31,817 bases of DNA from a virus (IMGVR_UViG_3300000231_000001:1-31817), one strand, 5' to 3'; positions 4,161-28,319 are shown, numbered from the stretch's first letter. Made by a program: numbers and translations. Notes: generated by a model from the sequence alone, not told the origin.

Positions 4161-4702
4161 ACGCCGAACAATATCTGAAATCACATTGGATTCGCAATAA
4201 AGTCTGGACGCACCTTGAATGGGAGAAGCATCAGCGGCGGTTGGAACAGTGCGCTGATTTTCTCGGCTCGGGGAAAAGATTCATCGACATTGGTTGCGCT
4301 TGTGGGCATTCAACGGCGATCATGAAGAAGTTTCATCCGGGCGAGTGGCACGGTGCTGACTTCGCCGATTGCGCGATCGACATCGCAAAAGACCAATTCC
4401 CGGAGATCGAATTTCACGCAGTAGCCGGGGTAGAGGCGCTTTGCCATTTGGGCACCTTCGACGGGGTCGTCTGCTCGGAAGTGATCGAGCATGTCCATGA
4501 AGACCGCCGATTCATTGAAAATGTTATGGCTGTGTGCCGCGGATCGGCGGTCTTCACGACTCCGACTCGGAAGGTTTCCGACCCCGGACATCTGAGAGTT
4601 TATAGAATAGATTCATTGAGGGAATTATTCAAGGATTTTGAGTTCGAGATTCATCAGATCGAGCCGTTTTTTTATGTGATCGTGCGAGAGAGAGAGAGAT
4701 GA
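4157..4702 (+). CDS. Class I SAM-dependent methyltransferase
   Basis: 181 residues. The start is TTG overlapping the previous stop (TTGA), with GGGGAGAA just upstream. Motif I is FIDIGCACGHS (D44-G50), followed by an acidic turn after WHGADF and a VVCSEVIEHVHED motif IV-like strand, typical of methyltransferase type 11/23 folds. The substrate is unknown. Context suggests methylation of a sugar hydroxyl or carboxyl on the glycan made by the neighbouring transferases. Confidence 0.75.
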   Translation: MNAEQYLKSHWIRNKVWTHLEWEKHQRRLEQCADFLGSGKRFIDIGCACGHSTAIMKKFHPGEWHGADFADCAIDIAKDQFPEIEFHAVAGVEALCHLGTFDGVVCSEVIEHVHEDRRFIENVMAVCRGSAVFTTPTRKVSDPGHLRVYRIDSLRELFKDFEFEIHQIEPFFYVIVRERER

Positions 4703-5424
4703 TCACGACGATTTATCACACGCGAATGAATCTCGATCGCCGAGATGTGCTGAGACTCAAGACGAAGCGCGTGTATGAGAAGACCGAATCCGATCTTGTT
4801 TCATCGATAATTTGTCCAGGTGATGTGTTCGTCGATATCGGCGCACATATCGGTTATTATTCGATGATCGCCGGACGGTTCGTTGGTTCTCTAGGCGTCG
4901 TGTTCGCGTTCGAGCCTGAAGCGGAGAATTTCTCTATTCTCGCAGAGAACGTGAAACTGAATGAATTCAAAAACGTATTCCCGATCAATATGGCGATCTC
5001 AGACCGATCGGGCGTCGGCAATCTTTTTCTCAACGATCAATCATCGGGAGATCATCGAATTTACCCGAGCGGCAAGAGATCACGCATGGTCTGCCATATT
5101 ACGACGATCGATGAGTTTTTTGATAAAATCGAGAAGATTTCTTTTATCAAGATCGATGTTCAAGGCGCGGAATGGCGCGCGCTGGCCGGTGCCGTGAAAA
5201 CTCTCCCTCGCGTTCCTCTCATGATGGTCGAATTTTACCCGCCTGGAATAATCGAATCGGGCGGCGACCCGAACAGATATCTCGATCAGTTGAGAGAATC
5301 CGGATTCAGAATCGGTGAGATCGATCGATACGGGCGCGGGATTCTTCCGTTCTCGAATCAAGAATTGATCGCGAAATATCCGGTCAAAATCGGGAGACAT
5401 TGTAATCTCTGGTGTGCGAGATGA
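4699..5424 (+). CDS. FkbM-family methyltransferase
   Basis: 241 residues, ATGA-coupled. It has the FkbM hallmarks: DVFVDIGAHIGYYS (residues 42-55), an FAFEPE acidic motif near 73-78, and IKIDVQGAEW near 150-159. FkbM enzymes (PF05050) methylate oxygen atoms and are common in glycan and polysaccharide loci. With three methyltransferases in a row, the final glycan is probably O-methylated at more than one place, or only one of them acts on it. Confidence 0.8.
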   Translation: MITTIYHTRMNLDRRDVLRLKTKRVYEKTESDLVSSIICPGDVFVDIGAHIGYYSMIAGRFVGSLGVVFAFEPEAENFSILAENVKLNEFKNVFPINMAISDRSGVGNLFLNDQSSGDHRIYPSGKRSRMVCHITTIDEFFDKIEKISFIKIDVQGAEWRALAGAVKTLPRVPLMMVEFYPPGIIESGGDPNRYLDQLRESGFRIGEIDRYGRGILPFSNQELIAKYPVKIGRHCNLWCAR

Positions 5425-6323
5425 AAGAGAAAATCTCCGTCGATCTCAAGGCCCGATACACGACGGGTCTCGGCAAAGCAGGATTGAATTGTGCTCAATA
5501 TGCGCGGGTCTTCAACTGTCGGATGATCGGCACGTTTAATCTGATCACACATCTGAATATCTTCGACTTTAAGCCATGCCGCCTTGATCTTGGCGGCTAC
5601 CATCAGTTTTATCTCGTCAAATTGAATGATCAATTCTACGGGTGGGTGATCAAGTGGAAGGATTCGCGACAGTCGCCGAATCACCTGGAGATCATCTCGA
5701 AAGAGAGATTCCCTGATCACATTAAACGGACTTCCGTGAAGGTCGAAGTGTTCGAGCGATGGGACGATCAAAAGATCAGACGATGGGCTGAGGGGATTCA
5801 CTTCTTTCAGACGTTCGAGTGGACACCGGATAACCGCAAAGCGGCGAATTCTTCGCTGGTATGGGATACGATCGCTCATGTGGAATTCAAAAATACCCGG
5901 GTGCTCGACATCGGTTGTAATTTCGGCTACCATTCGTTCAGAGCTTCAAGAGAAGGAGCGAGGGTGATCGGTTTCGATAAAAACGTGAATGTCTTACCTG
6001 TCGCCCGTCTGATCAATGACAATATCGAAATGCAGGATGTCGGATTCACTGATCGATTTCCGGCCGGGGAGCGATTCGATCATATTTTTTATTTCTCCGT
6101 TCAGCATCAGTTTGATGCCGAATATGAGACACTCAGACGATCAATCAATCAGTTGAAGGCGATCGCTGACGGTTCGATCTTCATCGAATTGATCGTGCCG
6201 CCATTGAGGGGGGAACTTTCTGAAACGCAGATCGATCGGATTCTTGGCTCGAAGGGCCTTTTGAAATATCGCCATAAGGTAAGGCGAGAGAGAAAAATCT
6301 ACGAGATAAAACCGGGAGGTTAA
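5421..6323 (+). CDS. SAM-dependent methyltransferase with N-terminal extension
   Basis: 300 residues from an ATG overlapping the previous stop. A GTG at 5412 would add three residues but is less likely. The first 150 residues show no motif I recognise. The methyltransferase core starts near 160 (RVLDIGCNFGYHS), followed by an acidic turn (VIGFDKN). The layout, with a core late in the chain and an FFQTFEW segment before it, resembles tRNA uridine-34 methyltransferase-like and lipid/sugar methyltransferases, but context favours glycan modification. It is the last gene of the cassette; the next gene has its own strong ribosome-binding site. Confidence 0.65.
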   Translation: MKEKISVDLKARYTTGLGKAGLNCAQYARVFNCRMIGTFNLITHLNIFDFKPCRLDLGGYHQFYLVKLNDQFYGWVIKWKDSRQSPNHLEIISKERFPDHIKRTSVKVEVFERWDDQKIRRWAEGIHFFQTFEWTPDNRKAANSSLVWDTIAHVEFKNTRVLDIGCNFGYHSFRASREGARVIGFDKNVNVLPVARLINDNIEMQDVGFTDRFPAGERFDHIFYFSVQHQFDAEYETLRRSINQLKAIADGSIFIELIVPPLRGELSETQIDRILGSKGLLKYRHKVRRERKIYEIKPGG

Positions 6324-6817: not shown

Positions 6818-7705
6818 ATGAACCTAGAGACGCCTGAGAGAGAGGTCAGAGAGATCGTCGTTCTCTATTCACGGGCAGAGAAATTATTGAGAAGGGAATT
6901 GACAACGATCGGCATCTCGTCCTATAAAGAGGTGAATGCGCTCAGAGCATCAGATCATGTGGCGAAGATCGTGAAAGAATTGAATCAGCGGACGGCGCGG
7001 TGGACGCAGATGGCGATGAAATCCGCTTACCGTACTCGATCTGAACAGTCGAAGATCACACTCTCAATACTCGGATTCAAGAAAAAAGCTCACATTTCGC
7101 CGATCGCGCAGATCAATGCCGAACGAAGATTCATTGAATCGACAGTCGCGTATTTCACCCGAGCGACGGGGTCGATCAAACGGTCTGCCGATCTTCTTTT
7201 GAATCTCTCCCGATCATCGAATCGATTGATAAAATCAATTCAAGAGTTCGATGAGGGGGAATATGCGTTCGCCGAAGAGTTATTCACTCAATGGGCGAAA
7301 GAGGCGGTGATCGCCGGATGGTCAAGGAAACGGCTCTCCGATATGATCGAAAATTACCTTTCCGGTTTCATCGACGATGAAGGATTGATCAATATCAGGG
7401 GCAGAAATTTCGCTCTAGGTGGCTACGCGGAGTTGGTCGCCAGGACGCAATTGAGGTCGGCTCAATCGGACGCGACCATCTCGACGTGTAATGAGTATGG
7501 TTGCGATCTCGTTCTCTTCTCTTCTCACGCGAATCCTTGTGAGATCTGTGCGCCGCTCGAAGGGCAAGTTTATTCGATCTCCGGAACGGCGAGAGATTAT
7601 CCGATGCTTACGGATGAGGAGACACCGCCGATTCACCCGCGTTGTGAACATTCGATTTCCCCGACCTCTGAGATCGCGATCGAGTATCGGGAGACGCACG
7701 GATGA
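6818..7705 (+). CDS. Minor head protein (phage minor capsid protein 2-like)
   Basis: 295 residues. The C-terminal third holds the signature of phage minor head proteins: ARTQLRSAQSDA, then SSHANPCEICAPLEGQVYS near 236-254, and PPIHPRCEHS near 269-278. The Cys pair at 240/243 and the HPRC motif look like a metal-binding cluster. Family members (PF06152 and SPP1 gp7 relatives) sit at the portal and can travel with the DNA. They usually lie beside the portal gene, so its position after the connector is slightly unusual. It is ATGA-coupled to the next gene. Confidence 0.7.
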   Translation: MNLETPEREVREIVVLYSRAEKLLRRELTTIGISSYKEVNALRASDHVAKIVKELNQRTARWTQMAMKSAYRTRSEQSKITLSILGFKKKAHISPIAQINAERRFIESTVAYFTRATGSIKRSADLLLNLSRSSNRLIKSIQEFDEGEYAFAEELFTQWAKEAVIAGWSRKRLSDMIENYLSGFIDDEGLINIRGRNFALGGYAELVARTQLRSAQSDATISTCNEYGCDLVLFSSHANPCEICAPLEGQVYSISGTARDYPMLTDEETPPIHPRCEHSISPTSEIAIEYRETHG

Positions 7706-9708: not shown

Positions 9709-9938
9709 CGGCGATCGCTCGCTCTTTCCCGGGTCTTTTTACTTACGCCGATCTGATCGCTCTCGACCTCAGGGATTTTAATTTCTGGCTCCGGGAGGCT
9801 CAAAAAAAGAACTATGAAGATCAGATCAAGAGGGCGATGATCTCTCGTTCTGCAATGGTCAAAGATGAAGACTTCAGATCATTTGTCGGGGCTATGAGAT
9901 GGAATCTTCGCCTCATGGAGCTTGAGGAGAAAAAATAA
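9382..9938 (+). CDS. Tail assembly chaperone G-T (-1 frameshift product)
   Basis: The -1 frame is open without interruption from the slippery site at 9675-9681 to the TAA at 9936-9938. The shift joins 9382-9681 to 9681-9938 and gives about 185 residues. The added domain runs RSFPGLFTYADLIAL through to ELEEKK and has no start of its own with a good ribosome-binding site. G/G-T pairs made by -1 frameshifting just upstream of the tape measure are conserved in long-tailed phages; in lambda the T part recruits the tail-tube subunit. Its stop overlaps the ATG of the tape measure gene. Confidence 0.8.
9675..9733 (+). promoter_or_regulatory. -1 ribosomal frameshift signal (slippery site plus stem)
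   Basis: The heptamer A-AAA-AAC is in the correct reading register of gene G (codons GAA AAA AAC). After a 9-base spacer, bases 9691-9703 (CCTGGGGAAGAGC) pair with 9721-9733 (GCTCTTTCCCGGG): 13 pairs including two G-U. The 17-base loop contains the zero-frame stop. Spacing and stem length are textbook for -1 programmed frameshifting. Confidence 0.8.
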
Positions 9939-12706
9939 TGGCCGGAGCGGGTGCAGGTTTTCTGGCTGGCTCGATTATCGCGAAGATGGTCTTGGACAAG
10001 ACCGGATGGAATCAGGCGGTTCAATCGGTCGGAAAAGACGCAAAAGCCCTTGGCTCGATGACCGAGCAACAGGCGAGAAATATTCGCGCGATGGGATTTG
10101 CGATGACAGCGGTGGGGGCCATTATAACCGCCACTATGACGAGTTTCGTCAAAGCCGCGCAGACTCAGATGGCTGCAGAGCGTCAGTTGAACGCCGTTCT
10201 GGAATCAACGAAGGGTGTGGCTGGGCTCACGGCAGAAGAGGTCAAAAAGCTCGCCGCTTCTATGCAATCCGTGACCACTTACGGCGATGAGGCCATTCTC
10301 GTCGGTCAGAATCTTCTTCTCACGTTCACGAATATCGGGAAAGACGTCTTCCCCGCCGCGACTGAGACGATGCTCGATATGTCGACCGCGCTCGGTCAAG
10401 ACCTTAAATCTTCGGCGATTCAGTTGGGGAAAGCGCTTCAGGACCCTGTTCTCGGCGTCACGGCTCTCAGGCGCGTCGGCGTGAATTTCAACGATGAACA
10501 ACGGGAGATCATAAAGACTCTCGTAGAATCCGGCCGCACGCTTGAAGCGCAGAAGATAATTCTCGCGGAATTGGCGACTGAGTTCGGCGGCTCTGCCCGT
10601 GCGGCGGCTCTTGAGTTCGGCGGCCAAATGAAACAATTGAAAAACGAAGTCGGCGATGTCAAAGAGGAATTGGGCCGTATGCTGATTCCTATTTTGCAAT
10701 CAATCGTCGGCGAGATAAAGCCGATCGTGATCTCTTTGAAAGAATGGATAAAAGAGCATCCAGGCTTGGCGAAAAACATCACGATCGTCGTTGCCGCACT
10801 CGGCGCACTGATGACCATTCTCGGGCCGCTTCTCATCATGCTCCCCGGACTTACGATCGCTTTCAATATGGCGAAAATTGCGATGGGCGCATCGCTAGGG
10901 CCAATGGCTGCCGTGACGGCGGGCGCTCTCGCGCTTGGGGCGGGAATCAATTATCTGATCAATCGATATAAAGCGAAGCAAGATGCGGAGATGGCCGCGA
11001 TCGTAAAGAATTCAGGCCCGATCGCTGAAGCGATGGAACTCCGAAAGCGATTGATCAAAGAGCAGATCGTCTCTCATGAAGAATGGCGAGAAATCTTCAA
11101 TAAACATGGGCGAGATTATTCAGCCACCCTCAATGCGATCGCCACAGATCCGTCTTACGCAAAATTACGCGGTGAACTTGAAGAAATCAGAAAAGAACAT
11201 GAAAAGACAAGCGGCGCATCGAAGGGCCTCAAGGAATCTTTTCCGGAATTAAGAGAGGAGATCGAGCGCTATGCGAAAGAACTGAATAACGCGAAAACCG
11301 CGGAAAAAGAATTCAGCGATTTTCTCTCCGAGATCGGGCTCAAAACGATCGCCGAGAAGCAGAGCCGAATCTCTGATCTTCTTGGCTATCAGGCGCGGCT
11401 CGATCAGATGTTGAAAGACAACAAGATCACTCTCGAAGACTATAAAATGGCGATCGCCGCGATCTCGAAAGAATTCTTTGAGTTCGGCGAGAAAATCGAA
11501 ACAGCCGTGCTTCCCGCCCGTGATCTTCTTGGTGTTCTCGATCTCGCTCCTTCGACATTCGAGGATGTCTCCTATGGTGTCCGTGATCTGGAAAAAGAGA
11601 TCGATTATCTTTCCGATCAGTTGAAAGTCTCTCCGGCGACTATTCGTATGGTGATCTTTAATCTCCAGGCTCTTCAGCTTCAACTCGCTGGAATTCATGT
11701 GCCGACCTTGGATTTTTCACAGTTGACGAGAGAAGCGGAGACGACCGTTGAGACGGCAAAAGGTTACTTCGACGGCCTCTACAACGACATCGCCTCCGGT
11801 TGGGCGAATACGATCCAGCAATGGGTTGAAGGGTCGATGACATTCCGTGATCTCTGGAAATCACTATGGGAAGATATAAAAAATTCCTTTTTCCGTGTTA
11901 TAGGTGAGATGGCTGCAAAATGGGCGATTGATCTTGTTAAGGGGCTTGTGAATCCAGCGCTGGACGCTGGTAAATCCATCACTTCGACACTCGGCTCTGC
12001 TGTCAAAGGAATCGGTACCGGAATAAAAGGACTTTTAACAGGTCTTGGCGAAGGGATAGCCGGGATGGCAAAGGCCATAGCGGGAGCGGCCAAGGAAATC
12101 TTGATCGCTGCCGGAGTTGCGCTTGCCATTTTTGCCGGATTCAAAATCGTAGAGGGAATCTTGGGAAAAGTATTCGGCGGCGGGGGGAAAGAATCAAGCG
12201 ATGTCACTTATTGGCTCAAACTTATTCAGACGAATACACAGAACCTTGAGAACATGGCCCTCAACGATCATAAAGGGATGCTCCATGAGATCATGATTAC
12301 CGGATGGGCGAGAAATGAACTTCTCGGTCACATTTATGATCTCACATCGAGTGATCTTAATAATCTCGGTGACAGAATAGTCGATCGACTCGGTGATATC
12401 ATCGAAGCGATTGAAAATATCGCGGGCGCTCAATCAGGGGCCATCGTGACGAAGCCCTCTTTTCTGAAGGTCGCCGAAAAATCGCCTGAAGCGATCATTC
12501 CTCTCGCCGATCTTCCGCGCATCGTGACGCCGAATCCCTCCTCTTCGCCGATCGTCAATCTCAATAATTATGTCTCAATCGATGGGACGATGATCACCGA
12601 CCGAGATTATACGCGGCAGAGGTTCATTCCTGAACTTATCGAAGCCCTGAACGCAAATGCGGATGGATTGAAATCAAAATTGCAGACGGCACTCGGGGTG
12701 GCCTGA
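9938..12706 (+). CDS. Tail tape measure protein
   Basis: 922 residues. The N terminus is helical with a hydrophobic MGFAMTAVGAIITATM segment, followed by the conserved tape-measure block LLLTFTNIGKDVFPAATETMLDMSTALGQDL and QLGKALQDPVLGVTALRRVGV (about 125-180). Hydrophobic segments follow near 280-345 and 680-750. The C terminus has the usual SFLKVAEKSPEAIIPL motif. At about 1.5 angstroms per residue the predicted tail is near 140 nm. No peptidase or transglycosylase domain is evident. The start overlaps the stop of the G-T frame. Confidence 0.9.
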   Translation: MAGAGAGFLAGSIIAKMVLDKTGWNQAVQSVGKDAKALGSMTEQQARNIRAMGFAMTAVGAIITATMTSFVKAAQTQMAAERQLNAVLESTKGVAGLTAEEVKKLAASMQSVTTYGDEAILVGQNLLLTFTNIGKDVFPAATETMLDMSTALGQDLKSSAIQLGKALQDPVLGVTALRRVGVNFNDEQREIIKTLVESGRTLEAQKIILAELATEFGGSARAAALEFGGQMKQLKNEVGDVKEELGRMLIPILQSIVGEIKPIVISLKEWIKEHPGLAKNITIVVAALGALMTILGPLLIMLPGLTIAFNMAKIAMGASLGPMAAVTAGALALGAGINYLINRYKAKQDAEMAAIVKNSGPIAEAMELRKRLIKEQIVSHEEWREIFNKHGRDYSATLNAIATDPSYAKLRGELEEIRKEHEKTSGASKGLKESFPELREEIERYAKELNNAKTAEKEFSDFLSEIGLKTIAEKQSRISDLLGYQARLDQMLKDNKITLEDYKMAIAAISKEFFEFGEKIETAVLPARDLLGVLDLAPSTFEDVSYGVRDLEKEIDYLSDQLKVSPATIRMVIFNLQALQLQLAGIHVPTLDFSQLTREAETTVETAKGYFDGLYNDIASGWANTIQQWVEGSMTFRDLWKSLWEDIKNSFFRVIGEMAAKWAIDLVKGLVNPALDAGKSITSTLGSAVKGIGTGIKGLLTGLGEGIAGMAKAIAGAAKEILIAAGVALAIFAGFKIVEGILGKVFGGGGKESSDVTYWLKLIQTNTQNLENMALNDHKGMLHEIMITGWARNELLGHIYDLTSSDLNNLGDRIVDRLGDIIEAIENIAGAQSGAIVTKPSFLKVAEKSPEAIIPLADLPRIVTPNPSSSPIVNLNNYVSIDGTMITDRDYTRQRFIPELIEALNANADGLKSKLQTALGVA

Positions 12707-20306: not shown

Positions 20307-20777
20307 TCTCCTATCTTCAACATAAGGCACGAGACCAGGGAGTTGATCTCGACCCGTGACGGTATCTTGTTTGGTCAGAACGACGTATGAACATAGTTTG
20401 AAATAGTTTTTCCCTTTCACCATGAACGGCTTTGGATGATTCCCTCTCTCTGGTTTCTCTGGCAATCAACGGCCGTCGTTGACTCACAATCTTTTGAGAG
20501 AGAGAATGATATCGAAAATGAGAATGAAAATGAAACAAGAGAGATCAGAAAGACGGATGATCGGAGCAGTGAAAGCCGCCTATCCCCTCTCTGATTTTCC
20601 CTTATCGGGAATTCTCTCTGAAGCGATCTTCAGTTCGAAGATCGATTGATCTTTGAAGTGCCGAGTCAGATTGGATTGTGATTAAGTTCTTGATCTGATC
20701 GGCTGAAAGAAAAATCGAATATCAGGCCCGTCGCGAGTGGTGTCGCGAGGCTGAGAAAGATTATTGATCACACCTCC
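20307..20777. other. Intergenic zone between structural and early genes
   Basis: About 470 bases without a convincing gene, followed directly by the leader at 20778. It contains several short hairpins: CAACG/CGTTG near 20467-20481, TTCCC/GGGAA near 20597-20612, GATCTTC/GAAGATC near 20623-20641, and a TCGCGA repeat pair near 20732-20750 that can fold on itself. A TTGACT at 20479 with GAGAAT 17 bases later is only a weak promoter candidate. One short open frame is listed separately. It may carry the early promoter or a packaging or regulatory site, but I cannot show which. Confidence 0.5.
20506..20649 (+). CDS. Possible 47-residue basic protein
   Basis: A 47-codon frame in the intergenic zone starts with four closely spaced Met codons (MISKMRMKMK) after a GAGAGAGA stretch that could serve as a weak ribosome-binding site. 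The start is very basic and the rest is ordinary. The purine-rich repeats before and within it could produce such a frame by chance, so I give low confidence and no function. Confidence 0.2.
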   Translation: MISKMRMKMKQERSERRMIGAVKAAYPLSDFPLSGILSEAIFSSKID

Positions 20778-20913
20778 ATAAAACACCAAAGAAGATCGAG
20801 GCTCAATCTTTGTGGTTGAGCCTTTTTCTGAGATCAGAATCCTTCGGGAATCTGATTTCAGAAAACAGATCGGGTTCGCTCGATCTGAAATCAATTCTTT
20901 GGAGGTGTTTTAT
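20778..20913 (+). ncRNA. Multi-branched leader masking a ribosome-binding box
   Basis: Bases 20778-20787 (ATAAAACACC) and 20788-20793 (AAAGAA) are complementary to 20904-20913 (GGTGTTTTAT) and 20895-20900 (TTCTTT). This 16-pair stem leaves only GGA of the Shine-Dalgarno bulged and covers the first two bases of the start codon. Three hairpins lie inside: 20799-20822, 20828-20861 (with a TTCG loop) and 20866-20887, giving a four-way junction. An alternative register pairs ACACCTCC (20770-20777) with GGAGGTGT (20901-20908). The layout resembles a cis-regulatory RNA; ligand or partner is unknown. Confidence 0.55.
20799..20827 (+). terminator. Rho-independent terminator inside the leader
   Basis: GGCTCAA (20800-20806) pairs with TTGAGCC (20816-20822), followed by five Ts. 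It lies 85 bases before the start codon at 20912 and inside the larger leader fold. It would either end transcripts from the structural side or act as an attenuator of the early genes, depending on where the promoter is. Confidence 0.6.
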
Positions 20914-21193
20914 GACGTATATGGGTTTTGATCTGTGGGACAGATTGAAGGCTTTCGGTCGAGTGATCGGCAAGCCCGTCCGCGAAGTCGGGAGTGAGCC
21001 AGGGGAACTTCTGATCGCTTCCTACAAGCCCGGCGATGTTCGATTCTATCGAATCGAAGAATCAATGGAATTCGGCGGGACACGGAGTTATGGCCCCGTT
21101 CGGTGGATGATTCACAAAGATTTGGCTCTTTATCTCGACGGCCTCGTGGATGGGGCGAAGAAAACCTGCGTCGTCTTCGGGAGATCATTATGA
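20912..21193 (+). CDS. Small protein of unknown function, first early gene
   Basis: 93 residues from the ATG of the conserved TTCTTTGGAGGTGTTTTATG box; upstream in-frame starts run through the hairpins and are rejected. The sequence is a compact alpha/beta type: MGFDLWDRLKAF, a strand-rich middle (GELLIASYKPGDVRFYRIEE) and a C-terminal helix (KDLALYLDGLVDGAKKTCVVF). I recognise no family. It is ATGA-coupled to the next gene and its start may be masked by the leader stem. Confidence 0.6.
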   Translation: MTYMGFDLWDRLKAFGRVIGKPVREVGSEPGELLIASYKPGDVRFYRIEESMEFGGTRSYGPVRWMIHKDLALYLDGLVDGAKKTCVVFGRSL

Positions 21194-21498
21194 AATTCGC
21201 CTGCACCCCAAACATTTTCTATCTCGCCGAACTCATGACTCTCAAAAAACTGATGACGCAGACCTACGATGCGATTGCCCCGGTAGTCTCTCGGACTTTC
21301 GAAGAGATCGACAAGCCGAGTTTGACGATGAACTGGGAAGAGGCGTTTCAGACGATTTGTGATGCCGGATATTTGGAACGTTATTCCGGAGGGGCGAGCG
21401 ATAGAGAAAGAAAGATAATTGAGAAATTTCGATCTCTCACGGTCGAAGATCAAAAGGCGACTTTTCTCTTTATCTTCGGGAGAATCCGATGGGCATGA
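21190..21498 (+). CDS. Small helical protein, unknown
   Basis: 102 residues, start overlapping the previous stop, with CGGGAG upstream. It is largely helical (LAELMTLKKLMTQTYDAIAPVVSRTFEEI, then DRERKIIEKFRSLTVEDQKATFLFIFGRI). No motif allows a family assignment. Genes of this size and place in phages are often host-takeover or anti-defence proteins, but that is only position-based. Confidence 0.55.
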   Translation: MKFACTPNIFYLAELMTLKKLMTQTYDAIAPVVSRTFEEIDKPSLTMNWEEAFQTICDAGYLERYSGGASDRERKIIEKFRSLTVEDQKATFLFIFGRIRWA

Positions 21499-21650
21499 CC
21501 ATTCGGGAATTCAAAGCCGAGAGCCGAATGACCGATCGGGAAAAGCGATTGCTCAGGCTCTTGATCGATGAACAGAAGAAGATTTTTGAACGTCGATCAC
21601 GACTGAGACGATTAATCGACCCGAAACACGCAGAGGGCCAGACCCGCTGA
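21489..21650 (+). CDS. 53-residue basic helical protein ending inside a ribozyme
   Basis: Starts MGMTIREFKAESRMTDREKR at an ATG 10 bases before the previous stop, with GGGAG six bases upstream. An ATG at 21495 is the alternative. The product is a charged helix (DREKRLLRLLIDEQKKIFERRSRLRR), possibly dimeric or nucleic-acid binding. Its last seven sense codons read through the 5' arm of the twister element and its TGA lies in the P1 loop. Translation would therefore unfold the ribozyme, giving a possible link between translation and cleavage. Confidence 0.55.
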   Translation: MGMTIREFKAESRMTDREKRLLRLLIDEQKKIFERRSRLRRLIDPKHAEGQTR

Positions 21651-21695
21651 GGGTCTGGTAATGCGGCTGGCGGGTCCCAAGCCCCGCCCCGTAAA
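21629..21695 (+). ncRNA. Twister self-cleaving ribozyme, copy 1
   Basis: All conserved twister parts are present in circularly permuted order. P2 is CGCA (21629-21632) with TGCG (21662-21665). GAGGG (21633-21637) is the L1 strand. P1 is CCAGACCC (21638-21645) with GGGTCTGG (21651-21658). TAA (21659-21661) holds the cleavage step, U21659|A21660. P4 is GGCGGG/CCCGCC with loop TCCCAAGC (21675-21682), and TAAA follows at 21692. The loop CCC can pair with L1 GGG (T1), and loop GC with GC at 21666-21667 (T2). The open ends lie after TAAA, as in the type I take to be P5. A conserved ribosome-binding box follows 12 bases on. Confidence 0.85.
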
Positions 21696-21718
21696 TCTTT
21701 TTTATATGGAGGTGTTTT

Positions 21719-21913
21719 ATGGCAATTCGGAAACCGAGGCTTGATTTGGTCGGACTGGACGGGAACGTGCTTTCTATTCTCGCGCGGGCGTTCCTGACGG
21801 CGAGAACGGCGGGTTGGTCGCTAGAGAAGATTGAAAAATTCAAGGGGAAGGCGACGTCCGGTGATTACAACAATCTTCTCGCTACGTGTATGGAGTATTT
21901 TGACGTTCGTTAA
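21719..21913 (+). CDS. Conserved small phage protein (GNV-SGDYNN type)
   Basis: 64 residues starting in the GGAGGTGTTTTATG box that follows ribozyme copy 1. The pattern DLVGLDGNVLSILARAFLTARTAGWS ... SGDYNNLLATCMEYFDV is one I recognise in many unrelated phages as a short conserved protein of unknown function. Its stop (21911-21913) directly abuts ribozyme copy 2. The function is not known. Confidence 0.65.
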   Translation: MAIRKPRLDLVGLDGNVLSILARAFLTARTAGWSLEKIEKFKGKATSGDYNNLLATCMEYFDVR

Positions 21914-21979
21914 GCAGAGGGCCGAGAGGATAATAACCTCTCGGTAATGCACGGCTCAGTCCCAAGTCTGAGCGGCAAA
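21914..21979 (+). ncRNA. Twister self-cleaving ribozyme, copy 2
   Basis: GCA (21914-21916) pairs with TGC (21948-21950) as P2. GAGGG (21917-21921) is the L1 strand. P1 is CCGAGAGG (21922-21929) with CCTCTCGG (21937-21944), loop ATAATAA. The cleavage step is U21945|A21946. P4 is GCTCAG (21954-21959) with CTGAGC (21968-21973) around loop TCCCAAGT. T1 pairs CCC with GGG, and T2 pairs loop GU with AC at 21951-21952. GCAAA replaces GTAAA at the 3' side. It begins on the base after the previous stop codon, so the ribozyme is free of coding constraint on the 5' side. Confidence 0.85.
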
Positions 21980-22001
21980 TTTTTTTCTTTGGAGGTGTTT
22001 T

Positions 22002-22181
22002 ATGGCGAAGCTCGCTTTTATCCGCGAAGGGAAAGCGGCGAAGGTTCTCCGGCGCGAGTCGGAGAACAGGGAAAGTGAGTCGGAGATTCGAACATTGAGG
22101 GCAAATCAGGGACTTGACCGAGTGGATGGCGGCATGAGTCTCGCGCAGATCAGGCAATGGCTGATCGATGGAGTCGAGTGA
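22002..22181 (+). CDS. 59-residue charged protein, unknown
   Basis: MAKLAFIREGKAAKVLRRES followed by a Glu/Ser/Arg-rich middle and a C-terminal helix (SLAQIRQWLIDGVE). The start is within a box identical over 20 bases to that at 20912. Its TGA shares a base with the next ATG, so translation is probably coupled. No family recognised. Confidence 0.55.
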   Translation: MAKLAFIREGKAAKVLRRESENRESESEIRTLRANQGLDRVDGGMSLAQIRQWLIDGVE

Positions 22182-22408
22182 TGTATTACATTCCCGCAAG
22201 CGCGGCGCGAGATTATCTCAGGGCAGGGTCAGTAAAAGCGGTTCGTAGAATCCCGCAAGGATTGAATGACGTCGTCATTCTTCTCGAACCCGTTCCGACC
22301 ATCTCTTCAATCGGCAAACCGCGAGAGACGCTTTGTGTCCGGCTGAACGCCGTATGGCTGATGGCTTTTGAAAATGAAAACCTTCTTTCTGAGGTCGAAC
22401 ATGACTGA
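22181..22408 (+). CDS. Small beta-rich protein, unknown
   Basis: 75 residues starting MYYIPASAARDYLRAGSVKA. The start shares its A with the stop of the preceding gene. The strand pattern (VVILLEPVPTISSI, then ETLCVRLNAVWLMAF) suggests a small beta fold. I see no catalytic motif. Overlaps the next gene by 8 bases. Confidence 0.5.
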   Translation: MYYIPASAARDYLRAGSVKAVRRIPQGLNDVVILLEPVPTISSIGKPRETLCVRLNAVWLMAFENENLLSEVEHD

Positions 22409-22772
22409 TGAAGAATTCGATGCCCTGATGAACGAGATTTGCGGCGATCTTCAAATCAAGACTTTCGAACGTCGGGCAAGGGAGAATCCCAAGACCTATT
22501 TTCCAAGCGGTCTCAAGTGGAAATATTATTCCGCTCATTCAAGAGGCCGACGATGGATGTTTTGTTATTCATCGGGAAGGAACGGGAACGGGAAATTCCT
22601 CTCTTGGGTCTATCAGCCGAAAGGCTCAAAAAAGAAGATCACGTGGAAATCCAGAAAGATCGTCGAACATCGGACGAGAAAGAAGGCGATCGTCAGAGCT
22701 CTGAAGCTCTATAAACAATTCAATGAAAAGCAGAGGGCGCGACGGGAAAAGGGAAATGCAGAGATCACCTGA
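22401..22772 (+). CDS. Basic protein of unknown function
   Basis: 123 residues from the ATG at 22401, with GAGGT six bases before it. An acidic helix (DEEFDALMNEICGDL) is followed by a strongly basic, aromatic middle (SGLKWKYYSAHSRGRRWMFCYSS) and a Lys/Arg-rich C terminus. The composition suggests a nucleic-acid contact. The family is not recognised. Confidence 0.5.
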   Translation: MTDEEFDALMNEICGDLQIKTFERRARENPKTYFPSGLKWKYYSAHSRGRRWMFCYSSGRNGNGKFLSWVYQPKGSKKKITWKSRKIVEHRTRKKAIVRALKLYKQFNEKQRARREKGNAEIT

Positions 22773-22953
22773 GTCGGCTTTTTGCCCCGGATGCGAAAAA
22801 TTCGAGAGAGAATGCAATCCTGACCCTGAAGATTATCGTAAGCCCTGCGAATCCTACGTTCCATCGGTCGAGACTCTCAGGCGAATACTGGATGAAGTCA
22901 TTGACGGGATTGCCGCGCTCATCGAGAGCGGCGATTTCCGTGTCAATGATTGA
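22756..22953 (+). CDS. Small four-Cys protein, likely zinc-binding
   Basis: 65 residues from the ATG at 22756 (AAGGGAA before it); an ATG at 22723 would extend it by 11 residues. The pattern C-P-G-C-x6-C-x10-C (FCPGCEKFEREC ... PCESY) looks like a zinc or iron-sulphur site, followed by an acidic helix. It is the last gene before ribozyme copy 3; the anti-Shine-Dalgarno sequence begins two bases after its stop. Confidence 0.5.
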   Translation: MQRSPESAFCPGCEKFERECNPDPEDYRKPCESYVPSVETLRRILDEVIDGIAALIESGDFRVND

Positions 22954-22954
22954 G

Positions 22955-23077
22955 AACACCTCCACTCACTTTCCCCCTCTATCGCAGAGGGCAGAGAGGG
23001 CTCGGGTCCTCTCTGTAATGCGGGAAGACGGTCCCAACCCCGTCTGCCGTAAATTCAATTTATTTTATGGAGGTGTT
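22955..23077 (+). promoter_or_regulatory. Anti-Shine-Dalgarno / Shine-Dalgarno pair flanking ribozyme copy 3
   Basis: AACACCTCCA (22955-22964) is a perfect 10-base complement of TGGAGGTGTT (23068-23077), the ribosome-binding region of the gene at 23080. The ribozyme lies between them. Pairing would mask the Shine-Dalgarno; cleavage at 23016|23017 would put the two strands on separate RNAs. This is a predicted switch, not an observed one. Confidence 0.55.
22983..23053 (+). ncRNA. Twister self-cleaving ribozyme, copy 3
   Basis: P2 is CGCA (22983-22986) with TGCG (23019-23022). GAGGG is at 22987-22991. P1 is CAGAGAGG (22992-22999) with CCTCTCTG (23008-23015). The cleavage step is U23016|A23017. 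P4 is AGACGG (23026-23031) with CCGTCT (23040-23045) around loop TCCCAACC. T1 pairs CCC with GGG. T2 pairs loop CC with GG at 23023-23024, a compensated change relative to copies 1 and 2 (GC:GC and GU:AC). GTAAA closes the 3' side. Confidence 0.85.
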
Positions 23078-23079
23078 TT

Positions 23080-24195
23080 ATGACCAACTCTCTACAACCT
23101 ACTCTCAATCGGGTGACCGAAGCGGTCGTCCGGGCAGAGAAGGCCCCGGAATTCACGGGGTCATGGCATCCCTATTCGCACGCACAAATTCTTGACGCCG
23201 TGGGGGTCGCGGTGAAGGATGCGGGTCTCGCGATCGTGAACAAAGAGTATTCGATCAGGCCCGAGTCCAAGATGATCGCCTGCTGGGAGGTCGAGACGCC
23301 GGGAAAGGAATTCAATCATGGAATTTCTATCCTGAACTCGATCGACAAGACTCACGCGGTGACGCTCGGGTGCTTCGAGAAGATTTTCGTCTGCTCGAAT
23401 TTCTGCTTCCGCATGGAATACGAGCGGGTGATGTTTCGGAAGCACTCCGGCGCGCTCGAACTCGAAGAGATCATCTGGCTCGCGAAAGAGGCGCTGAAGA
23501 TTCTCATTCCGAAATTCAAAGCGCTCAGCGGCTGGCACGCGAAGATGAAAGAAGTGAAGCTCGACGCCGAGCAAGCCGCCCTCCTGACCCTCGCCGCCAT
23601 CCGGCGCGGTCTTCTCCCCCCGGCGAAATCGCCCACGTTTCTCGATCTCTTCATGGGGACGAACTCGAAATACAAAGAGTTCGGCTCTTCACTCTGGGCA
23701 TGGCACGGTGCGTCCACCGAACTGATGAACGACAATTCGATTCTGACGATCGTCGCGAAGCAAGACCGCCTCAATTATTTCGTCGATCACGAGGCACCGA
23801 TCGTGCTGAAGCACGGCCATGATTATCAAATCGATCTCCCGAAGATCGAGAAAGAAGCTCACGACCTCTATCTGAAAGAGAGAGAGGAGAAGCGGGGAGA
23901 ACTCCGGACCGCTTATGCCGAGATCAGAGACAAATTCAAAGGCGTGAAGAAAGAAGCGTCAGGCAAGATCAAAGAGGAGAAGAAAAAAGAGAAAGAGGCA
24001 GAGAAGAAGATCAAGGCAGAAGAAAAATCTTCTCAGGTTCAATCAGGTTCAAAGACAAAGAGCACGTCTGATCAGTCGATCACGCCCCCGAAGAAATCGA
24101 ACGGGAAGAAGACCTCGAAGAAAACCGAGAAGACTCTCTCAGAGAAGAAGACCCGGAAGGATGGGGCCTCGATCACGGCGGTGAAACCCGCCTGA
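23080..24195 (+). CDS. DUF932-like phage/plasmid protein
   Basis: 371 residues starting in the conserved box after ribozyme copy 3. The central pattern LNSIDKTHAVTLGCFEKIFVCSNFCF (about 86-111) and the following WLAKEALKILIPKF match the DUF932 / TIGR03299 group of phage and plasmid proteins, some of which are abundant and may bind DNA. The last 90 residues are a Lys/Glu/Ser-rich low-complexity tail (about 285-371). The function of the family is unclear. A perfect terminator follows 16 bases after the stop, so this gene closes the ribozyme-bearing unit and may be its most highly expressed member. Confidence 0.65.
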   Translation: MTNSLQPTLNRVTEAVVRAEKAPEFTGSWHPYSHAQILDAVGVAVKDAGLAIVNKEYSIRPESKMIACWEVETPGKEFNHGISILNSIDKTHAVTLGCFEKIFVCSNFCFRMEYERVMFRKHSGALELEEIIWLAKEALKILIPKFKALSGWHAKMKEVKLDAEQAALLTLAAIRRGLLPPAKSPTFLDLFMGTNSKYKEFGSSLWAWHGASTELMNDNSILTIVAKQDRLNYFVDHEAPIVLKHGHDYQIDLPKIEKEAHDLYLKEREEKRGELRTAYAEIRDKFKGVKKEASGKIKEEKKKEKEAEKKIKAEEKSSQVQSGSKTKSTSDQSITPPKKSNGKKTSKKTEKTLSEKKTRKDGASITAVKPA

Positions 24196-24211
24196 TCTCT
24201 TTTCACCCCCA

Positions 24212-24253
24212 AGGGGCGATATCGTCGCGAGATGGTATCGCCCCTTTTTTTTT
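24212..24253 (+). terminator. Strong rho-independent terminator
   Basis: AGGGGCGATA (24212-24221) pairs perfectly with TATCGCCCCT (24236-24245) and is followed by nine Ts. It separates the ribozyme-bearing genes from the regulator and replication genes. A second small hairpin (GGGAAA/TTTCCC near 24264-24279) follows. Confidence 0.9.
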
Positions 24254-27173: not shown

Positions 27174-28319
27174 ATGAAAACGAGAGAACGGGGACGGGGA
27201 GAATCAAAACACCTCCAAGACGAGCTTCCAACCGACCCGCCCCCCTCTTCTCTCGCCGAAAATGAGGGCAAGATGGGAAAAATGATTCATGAAGGATTAT
27301 GGCGATCAGAAAAACTCGCCCGATGTTCGACGTTGGCACAACTCCATTATCCTCGGCTTTATCTTTTGACGGATGATTGGTCGTGTTTCGAGATTGATTT
27401 GCCTGTGATCATGGGGAGAGTTTATCCGAAAATGAAAAGAGTGGATTGGCGATCGATTCTCAATTTTTTGATCGAATATCGCGAGAACGGGCTTCTTTTT
27501 ATCTGGCGAGATCAGATGAGAACGGTTTTTGGTTATTTCACCGGAAAGGAGGAAGGTCGCCTTTTTCCGCCATCTCGCCGTCATAAGCGACAAACCCCTC
27601 CACCACCGAAGAAAGAACTCTCTGACTATATAAATAGATTCAGTTTTCTTGATAAGGAATCGGAAAAACTTCAAGATGGGTTCAAAGTGACTTCAAAAGA
27701 CTTCAAAGTGACTTCAAACAGACTACCCTCTCTTTCTCTTTCTCCTTCTCTAGATCTTACGTCTTATTCTGATCTTCTCTTATCTTCTGATTCTCCGGTT
27801 AATCTAGATCATATCGATAGGAATAAAGACACACGTCGTTCCGACGAAGTGAGGCTCGAATTCACCGAATGGCTCAAAGATGTCATGACGAAATGGAATG
27901 AGTTCGCCAAAAAAACAGGGGTGAAAGAAATCGCGTCGATCAAGCCAGAGTCCAAAAGGATGATCTCTCTCAAAGCACGCTTCAAAGATGGCGATTTTGA
28001 TATTGAGGAGATTCTCGATGCCGCTTCAGAACAGAGGTTTCTCTTCGGGGAAAGTCAGAGGGGATGGCAGATTTCTTTTGATTGGATTATACTGCCATCG
28101 AACTACCCGAAAGTTCTCGAAAAGGTATACGGCGGGAAAAAAATCATTGAACCCGGTCAGAATATAAAGCCTCAAACCGCCCAAGAGGCCGCATATCTTA
28201 AAGCCAGAAAGGAATTTATAGATAATTTGATCAAAGAGCATGGCGAAGATATTCCCGAAGATGATCTCAGAACGCGACTCGCGGAATTCTCGAAAAAATA
28301 TTGGGGCGACAGTCAATGA
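27174..28319 (+). CDS. Replication initiator / helicase-loader-like protein
   Basis: 381 residues if it starts at 27174; the ATG at 27273 (GAGGG before it, M34) is at least as likely because the conserved part begins at MGKMIHEGLWRSEKLARCST. An N-terminal winged-helix-like region (about 40-125: LYLLTDDWSCFEIDLP ... ENGLLFIWRDQ ... FGYFTGKEE) is followed by a Ser/Leu-rich linker and a C-terminal domain with WNEFAKKTGV and GWQISFDWIILPSNYPKVLE. This is the layout of phage replication initiators such as lambda O. Iteron-like repeats lie in the linker. Confidence 0.65.
   Translation: MKTRERGRGESKHLQDELPTDPPPSSLAENEGKMGKMIHEGLWRSEKLARCSTLAQLHYPRLYLLTDDWSCFEIDLPVIMGRVYPKMKRVDWRSILNFLIEYRENGLLFIWRDQMRTVFGYFTGKEEGRLFPPSRRHKRQTPPPPKKELSDYINRFSFLDKESEKLQDGFKVTSKDFKVTSNRLPSLSLSPSLDLTSYSDLLLSSDSPVNLDHIDRNKDTRRSDEVRLEFTEWLKDVMTKWNEFAKKTGVKEIASIKPESKRMISLKARFKDGDFDIEEILDAASEQRFLFGESQRGWQISFDWIILPSNYPKVLEKVYGGKKIIEPGQNIKPQTAQEAAYLKARKEFIDNLIKEHGEDIPEDDLRTRLAEFSKKYWGDSQ
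27681..27723. repeat. Iteron-like repeats, candidate phage origin
   Basis: Four head-to-tail copies of TTCAAA(G/A)(T)GAC start at 27681, 27692, 27702 and 27713 (11, 10, 11 and 11 bases), with a weaker fifth at 27670. An AT- and pyrimidine-rich stretch follows to about 27810. Repeats encoding the linker of an initiator gene are how lambda and several other phages place their origin. Confidence 0.55.

Follow-up and report, generated by a model that had tools for sequence, protein, structure and literature searches.

What does a phage gain by setting one ribozyme after another between its genes? The question is raised by a linear 31.8-kb viral record (31,817 nucleotides of IMGVR_UViG_3300000231_000001; 'the window' denotes this whole stretch), which comes from an uncultured tailed phage and carries three predicted twister ribozymes in series. 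The idea of ribozymes cutting phage transcripts is not new. As far as the accessible parts of the source go, several hammerheads can lie close together in prophages, flanking genes or gene blocks; tandem hammerheads cleaved in vitro, and a triple one beside ardA also did so in E. coli; and the processing of long phage RNAs was already proposed for such clusters (Perreault et al. 2011, PMC3088659). The same source places a hammerhead variant 13 nt before a start codon in the haloviruses HF1 and HF2. The original prediction knew of no precedent for the serial arrangement in the window, a view that has to be softened given these clustered hammerheads and the processing proposal of 2011. Bacterial hammerheads and twisters also occur unusually often close to Mu-like phage genes and to one another, for unknown reasons (PMC10085705), and the role of prokaryotic ribozymes has been stated as open (PMC6155905).

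In the window, a minor head protein (6818-7705) and a tape measure protein (9938-12706) are followed by tail genes, and regulators, a replication protein and a sigma-like factor lie downstream of 24388. Sialyltransferase-like and methyltransferase-like genes adjoin the head genes (2-847 and 4699-6323). Between the structural and replication genes sits a module of small genes (20912-24195), all on the + strand. Gene 1 (20912-21193) is an open reading frame in frame behind a ribosome-binding site (RBS) box, with no family match and no known function; gene 2 (21190-21498) overlaps it by 4 nt and is followed by a small open reading frame, gene 3 (21489-21650). Behind twister 1 lies gene 4 (21719-21913; phrog_1933, E 3.7e-16; function unknown). 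Twister 2 precedes gene 5 (22002-22181, unknown) and three further reading frames whose starts were picked from the sequence: gene 6 (22181-22408) shares 1 nt with the preceding stop codon, and genes 7 (22401-22772) and 8 (22756-22953) have overlapping starts. Gene 9 (23080-24195) stands behind twister 3, and the module ends at a strong intrinsic terminator with a 16-pair stem and a T run (about 24211-24253, + strand).

Two features of this layout bear on how the module is transcribed. According to a mechanical gene call, every twister-free junction in the window overlaps by 1 to 17 nt, and the three twister junctions are open. Between 20901 and 24210 no strong terminator or promoter-like site was found, only weak sites, and a single transcript is therefore the simplest reading of the four units; it falls short of proof, given those weak sites and the possibility of promoters inside genes or for a sigma factor of the phage itself. 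The leader of gene 1 contains two stable hairpins (20830-20887, + strand; the fold of 20830-20915 has -30 kcal/mol and a z-score of -3.3), which occupy the slot where the later units carry a twister and which match no Rfam family.

A cmscan of the window against all of Rfam returned three full-length matches (model positions 1-58, + strand) to the type-P5 twister model RF02684, whose cut-off is 37.6 bits: twister 1 at 21629-21686 (60.5 bits, E 2e-10), twister 2 at 21913-21971 (51.0 bits, E 6e-8) and twister 3 at 22983-23043 (58.3 bits, E 8e-10). Nothing else in the window reached E 0.1 in this search, and there is no fourth twister copy in the whole record. The three elements that the original prediction had called twisters were thus recovered, 3/3, by the Rfam twister model. 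Core nucleotides (GA with T1, U|AA with P2, and GUCCCAA) are complete in all three, in type-P5 order and with P1 as a closed hairpin. The structural details of the prediction likewise agree with the sequence. Each P1 has eight pairs (CCAGACCC/GGGTCTGG, CCGAGAGG/CCTCTCGG and CAGAGAGG/CCTCTCTG for twisters 1, 2 and 3; in twister 1 the arms are 21638-21645 and 21651-21658). Each P4 has six, in arms that differ in sequence and keep their pairing (GGCGGG/CCCGCC, GCTCAG/CTGAGC and AGACGG/CCGTCT), and the T2 contact covaries as claimed (GC:GC, AC:GU and GG:CC). The cuts proposed at U21659|A21660, U21945|A21946 and U23016|A23017 are correctly placed, as predictions. In sequence, fold, the T1 and T2 pseudoknots and permutation the elements resemble RF02684, with no structural difference. 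On these sequence grounds they are genuine type-P5 twister ribozymes; their self-cleavage is inferred, there being no cleavage data. A stretch in the coding region at 22730-22760 (GCAGAGGG ... AAATGC) resembles half a twister; it lacks P1 and the 3′ half and was taken as a chance likeness.

Each twister had also been said to stand ahead of a conserved ribosome-binding box, and behind all three the box GGAGGTGTTTTATG is indeed exact. It occurs four times on the + strand: with the start codon behind twisters 1 (21708-21721), 2 (21991-22004) and 3 (23069-23082), and before the module's first gene, which has no twister (20901-20914). When up to 3 mismatches were allowed, no shuffle equalled the observed count. 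Gene 1 has the same box but no ribozyme, and a ribozyme is thus not required for it. GGAGGTG begins 19-25 nt after the Rfam model ends, or about 15-20 nt if the T/C-AAA linker is counted, and the predicted cuts lie 59, 56 and 63 nt from the start codons behind twisters 1, 2 and 3. Three + strand stretches resembling AACACCTCC (20769-20777, 22955-22963 and 27208-27216) are complementary to GGAGGTGTT of the RBS box, and the one at 22955-22963 sits just ahead of twister 3. They could mask an RBS, or be what is left of the box on the opposite strand.

The arrangement is not peculiar to this phage. Viral contigs were retrieved with a pattern that holds the twister core only and no gene feature, and 67 of the matched records were searched whole with RF02684. 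A match above the cut-off was present in 64/67, and 27 records held at least three type-P5 twisters, the richest of them 20, 15 and 14. Removal of near-duplicates left 23 lineages, which have no more DNA words in common than chance would give, and the twisters of one locus all lie on one strand. One further record (L241) shares no 21-mer with the window. When the array loci were compared with the whole of Rfam by cmscan, the only ribozymes were type-P5 twisters and three type-II hammerheads, the latter in loci that also hold twisters. Several pattern matches in bacterial genomes and some in viral records had no covariance-model match and were set aside as chance. No cultured phage with a twister array was found in INPHARED by DNA or protein similarity, and Ruegeria phage RpAliso, Cronobacter phage CR3, Aeromonas phage AHPMCC7 and Dinoroseobacter phage R4C have no RF02684 match. 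Five arrays (L132, L133, L134, L147 and L148) contain gene gaps of 100-200 nt without an Rfam match, which may hold promoters or undescribed ribozymes. A bacterial genome (G306, behind L164/L170), of the order of an Oscillospiraceae MAG, carries type-P5 twisters in two clusters, three of the copies being near-identical and 1.2-1.4 kb apart; these clusters are probably prophage. In that order, a twister above the cut-off is present in 4 of the 394 genomes.

Across the relatives the ribozyme core and its pairing are conserved. AA after the cut and GA are present in 174/174 copies and U before the cut in 166/174. Among 173 non-identical copies, P1, P2, T1, T2 and P4 all keep their pairing far above the level of shuffles. 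P1 was fully paired over 6 pairs in 129/173 (2.5 in shuffles) and T2 was paired in 172/173; variants in T1 were compensated in 45/46 cases (shuffle mean 8.7) and those in P2 in 14/17 (shuffle 4.7). P1 arms mostly differ between copies within one genome. The prediction that the elements are circularly permuted, with P1 closed as in type P5, is borne out both by the RF02684 matches and by the same layout in the 23 further lineages.

The sharpest feature of the arrays, which the original prediction overlooked, is that the ribozyme typically starts at the upstream gene's stop codon. Twister starts fall at -4 to +1 nt of the upstream stop in 124/174 cases (71%), against 2.8% for random positions in the same DNA. 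A Shine-Dalgarno sequence and start codon follow about 36-66 nt past the cut in 149/174 (86%; random 14.7%), and both features are combined in 107/174 (61%; random 0.62%). The median distance from cut to start is 52 nt, with quartiles of 47-57. The median gap between genes is 85 nt where a twister intervenes and 5 nt where none does, so that most of the remaining junctions are probably coupled. Units between cuts have a median length of 651 nt and mostly hold one or two genes. The junction and unit figures come from mechanical gene calls and are hence estimates. In the window, only twister 2 abuts the stop codon, sharing its first base with the end of the upstream TAA; twister 1 holds the preceding stop (that of gene 3) within its P1 loop, and the one ahead of twister 3 is 30 nt upstream.

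An unrelated ribozyme class can take the same position. Type-II hammerheads occur in or beside twister arrays in three loci (L129, L109 and L123), and weaker ones in two records (G003 and G036); those inside arrays take the same slot as twisters. A separate scan for the type-II hammerhead core alone yielded at least 120 stretches. Among the matches listed, hammerheads with both hairpins start at -4 to +2 of a stop codon in 94/122 cases (random 3.1%), and 81/122 combine this with a Shine-Dalgarno sequence and start codon within 90 nt (random 1.1%). Hammerhead-only arrays also exist, with 9-10 type-II copies on one strand in G475 and G481 among the matches listed. As a further observation, the viral records G481, G475 and G499 (behind L181, L220 and L246) have same-strand arrays of 5 to 10 type-II hammerheads in the geometry of the twister arrays. 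No type-I or type-III hammerhead exceeded the cut-off in 48 records; the control genomes were also blank for type I, which makes the negative for that type a weak one. Streptomyces phage Samy, which matched a hammerhead-bearing contig, was rejected: the stretch has no Rfam match and the shared DNA looks tRNA-like. From the known folds it can be inferred that in both classes the permutation leaves a closed hairpin immediately upstream of the cut (P1 in twisters, stem III in hammerheads) and, on the downstream side, a second one close to the new 5′ end (P4 and stem I, respectively).

We propose that the twisters cut one polycistronic phage mRNA in cis at gene boundaries, and assign this reading a probability of roughly 80%; cutting in vivo is inferred, without transcript, 5′-end or cleavage data. 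That a polycistronic RNA is cut serially had been inferred from the window alone, and the same layout in 23 lineages now supports the inference, with cleavage still unproven. Under the proposal, cutting would take place in cis during or soon after transcription. The upstream message would end in the 8-pair P1 hairpin and bear a 2′,3′-cyclic phosphate, and the downstream message would begin with 5′-OH-AAUGC, followed by the P4 hairpin and, about 50 nt on, a strong RBS. The module of the window would thereby become four separate hairpin-ended mRNAs holding genes 1-3, gene 4, genes 5-8 and gene 9. Overlapping genes inside a unit are probably coupled in translation, and between units the ribozyme would separate them. 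Each unit would likely gain a context-free leader of its own, together with ends that resist RNases requiring a 5′-monophosphate or an unpaired, free 3′ end. Sequence comparison establishes, as far as it can, what the ribozymes are, that they covary, where they sit, that they recur and that an unrelated class can replace them; stability and independent expression or dosage are a likely benefit, inferred without data on either mRNA stability or dosage.

Several other purposes have to be weighed against cutting for separate expression. Cleavage might serve to limit expression, with the 5′-OH end or the loss of the leader destabilising the downstream message as a negative control in an early operon. 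Self-cleavage in a leader is generally known to lower expression in many synthetic constructs, but the cut in these arrays would put hairpins on both new ends while keeping an open, conserved RBS, and both ribozyme classes show the permutation that leaves a hairpin on each side; we regard a limiting role as unlikely. Alternatively, the cut could turn translation on by parting an upstream mask from the downstream RBS. The AACACCTCC stretch ahead of twister 3 perfectly complements the GGAGGTGTT segment of the RBS box, and the predicted accessibility of the RBS there rises from 0.27 to 0.43 on cutting. Twisters 1 and 2 show zero gain, however, and the mean gain over 163 twisters is 0.038 versus 0.052 at 121 twister-free starts (p 0.6). 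With no excess over control sites, unmasking was rejected as a general mechanism and appears very improbable as the purpose of the arrays.

Excised units, with their 5′-OH and 2′,3′-cyclic phosphate, might instead be circularised, either through RtcB or through reversal of the ribozyme reaction, with the halves of neighbouring twisters as a splint. By established chemistry the ends produced are RtcB substrates, and the nearly invariant P2 strands could meet across a unit. A conserved splint is nonetheless contradicted by neighbours that differ in T1: within each ribozyme their pairing is complete in 47/48 and 46/48, whereas across unit ends it is complete in 13/48. Intact pairing in cis without pairing across the ends of a unit fits cutting in cis and not a conserved circularisation splint. 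RtcB is encoded in 0/23 array-bearing viral records, although host RtcB remains possible, and we give circularisation scant credence. The least credible account is that the twisters are selfish or inert cassettes spread by phage recombination, with no role in expression. Near-identical copies in a few arrays (L127, L130 and L146) and the varying accessory genes that flank arrays could be taken that way, but most copies within an array differ in P1 with pairing kept and the core is intact in nearly all of them; their position at the stop codon, and the fact that an unrelated ribozyme class can stand in for them, suggest that cutting at gene boundaries is under selection.

A wider form of the gene-boundary proposal can be advanced only tentatively, and we do not yet favour it. 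Phages may follow a class-independent rule by which ribozymes at stop codons (twister P5 or hammerhead II, with a hairpin on each side of the cut) punctuate operons, their cutting being gated by translation of the upstream gene. The gating would follow from geometry, since a ribosome that terminates there would sit over the beginning of the ribozyme (the P2 and T1 strands). Cuts would then occur only between ribosomes, and translation and mRNA segmentation would be coupled.

How the arrays relate to known systems can now be stated more exactly. They share with the prophage hammerheads of Perreault et al. (2011) the presence of several self-cleaving ribozymes around individual genes or gene blocks in phage DNA, in the twister arrays all on the same strand. 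Judged by the accessible portion of that work, they differ in that its ribozymes are double or triple hammerheads, whereas here there are up to 20 type-P5 twisters starting at a stop codon, with both classes interchangeable in one geometry. The tRNA punctuation of mitochondria (general knowledge) likewise marks the cut of a long transcript by structured RNA between genes, but there RNase P and RNase Z do the cutting and here the element is predicted to cut itself. Insulators of the RiboJ type (general knowledge) also use a self-cleaving ribozyme in the 5′ leader and standardise the leader ahead of the RBS; they are engineered, single and placed after a promoter, whereas the arrays are natural, serial and located between genes that are probably co-transcribed. 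Ruegeria phage RpAliso (L159) offers a different route to an own short message for each small gene. In its stretch 142191-148213 a GGGGCCGAAAGGCCCC hairpin, apparently a terminator, and a promoter-like box (GAATCGTGTCATCCTATGTGACA ... CCGAAACGCA) recur behind each small gene, and there is no twister; a ribozyme that starts at the upstream stop codon, by contrast, leaves no room for a promoter between the two.

What is known, then, is the ribozyme class and the idea of phage RNA processing; what is new is the twister arrays, their scale and the exact geometry of stop codon, ribozyme and RBS. Neither the serial layout of one twister per boundary nor large twister arrays, stop-codon placement and the sharing of that place by two classes were found in the searchable literature, which does not cover subscription papers. 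Arrays of up to 20 elements in fixed geometry, in two unrelated folds and in unrelated phages, narrow the purpose of phage ribozymes to cutting at gene boundaries. They yield exact, testable predictions of mRNA ends, may explain why type-P5 twister and type-II hammerhead permutations are present in phages, and constitute natural parts for splitting operons.

The genes served in this way are for the most part obscure. Those directly behind twisters are short (median 88 aa) and mostly of unknown function; among 135 of them, phrog_1221/DUF932 occurs seven times, and an ArdC-type anti-restriction protein and RadC are also present. From this it may be inferred that the arrays are part of modules for accessory functions or host takeover. 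In the window, the 371-aa protein encoded by the gene at 23080 is distantly related to phrog_1221/DUF932 (E 0.041, against 9e-5 for its homologue in L141). Back-translated patterns found no relatives of this gene in viral contigs. Only a comparison of the genes behind twisters (phmmer and hmmsearch) recovered homologues, in two array phages (L134 and L141) that share no DNA with the window. In each of them the homologue stands directly behind the last twister of the array, and the same gene family thus follows the last twister in three phages, an association that recalls the hammerhead beside ardA in Agrobacterium, as the accessible part of the 2011 paper describes it (PMC3088659).
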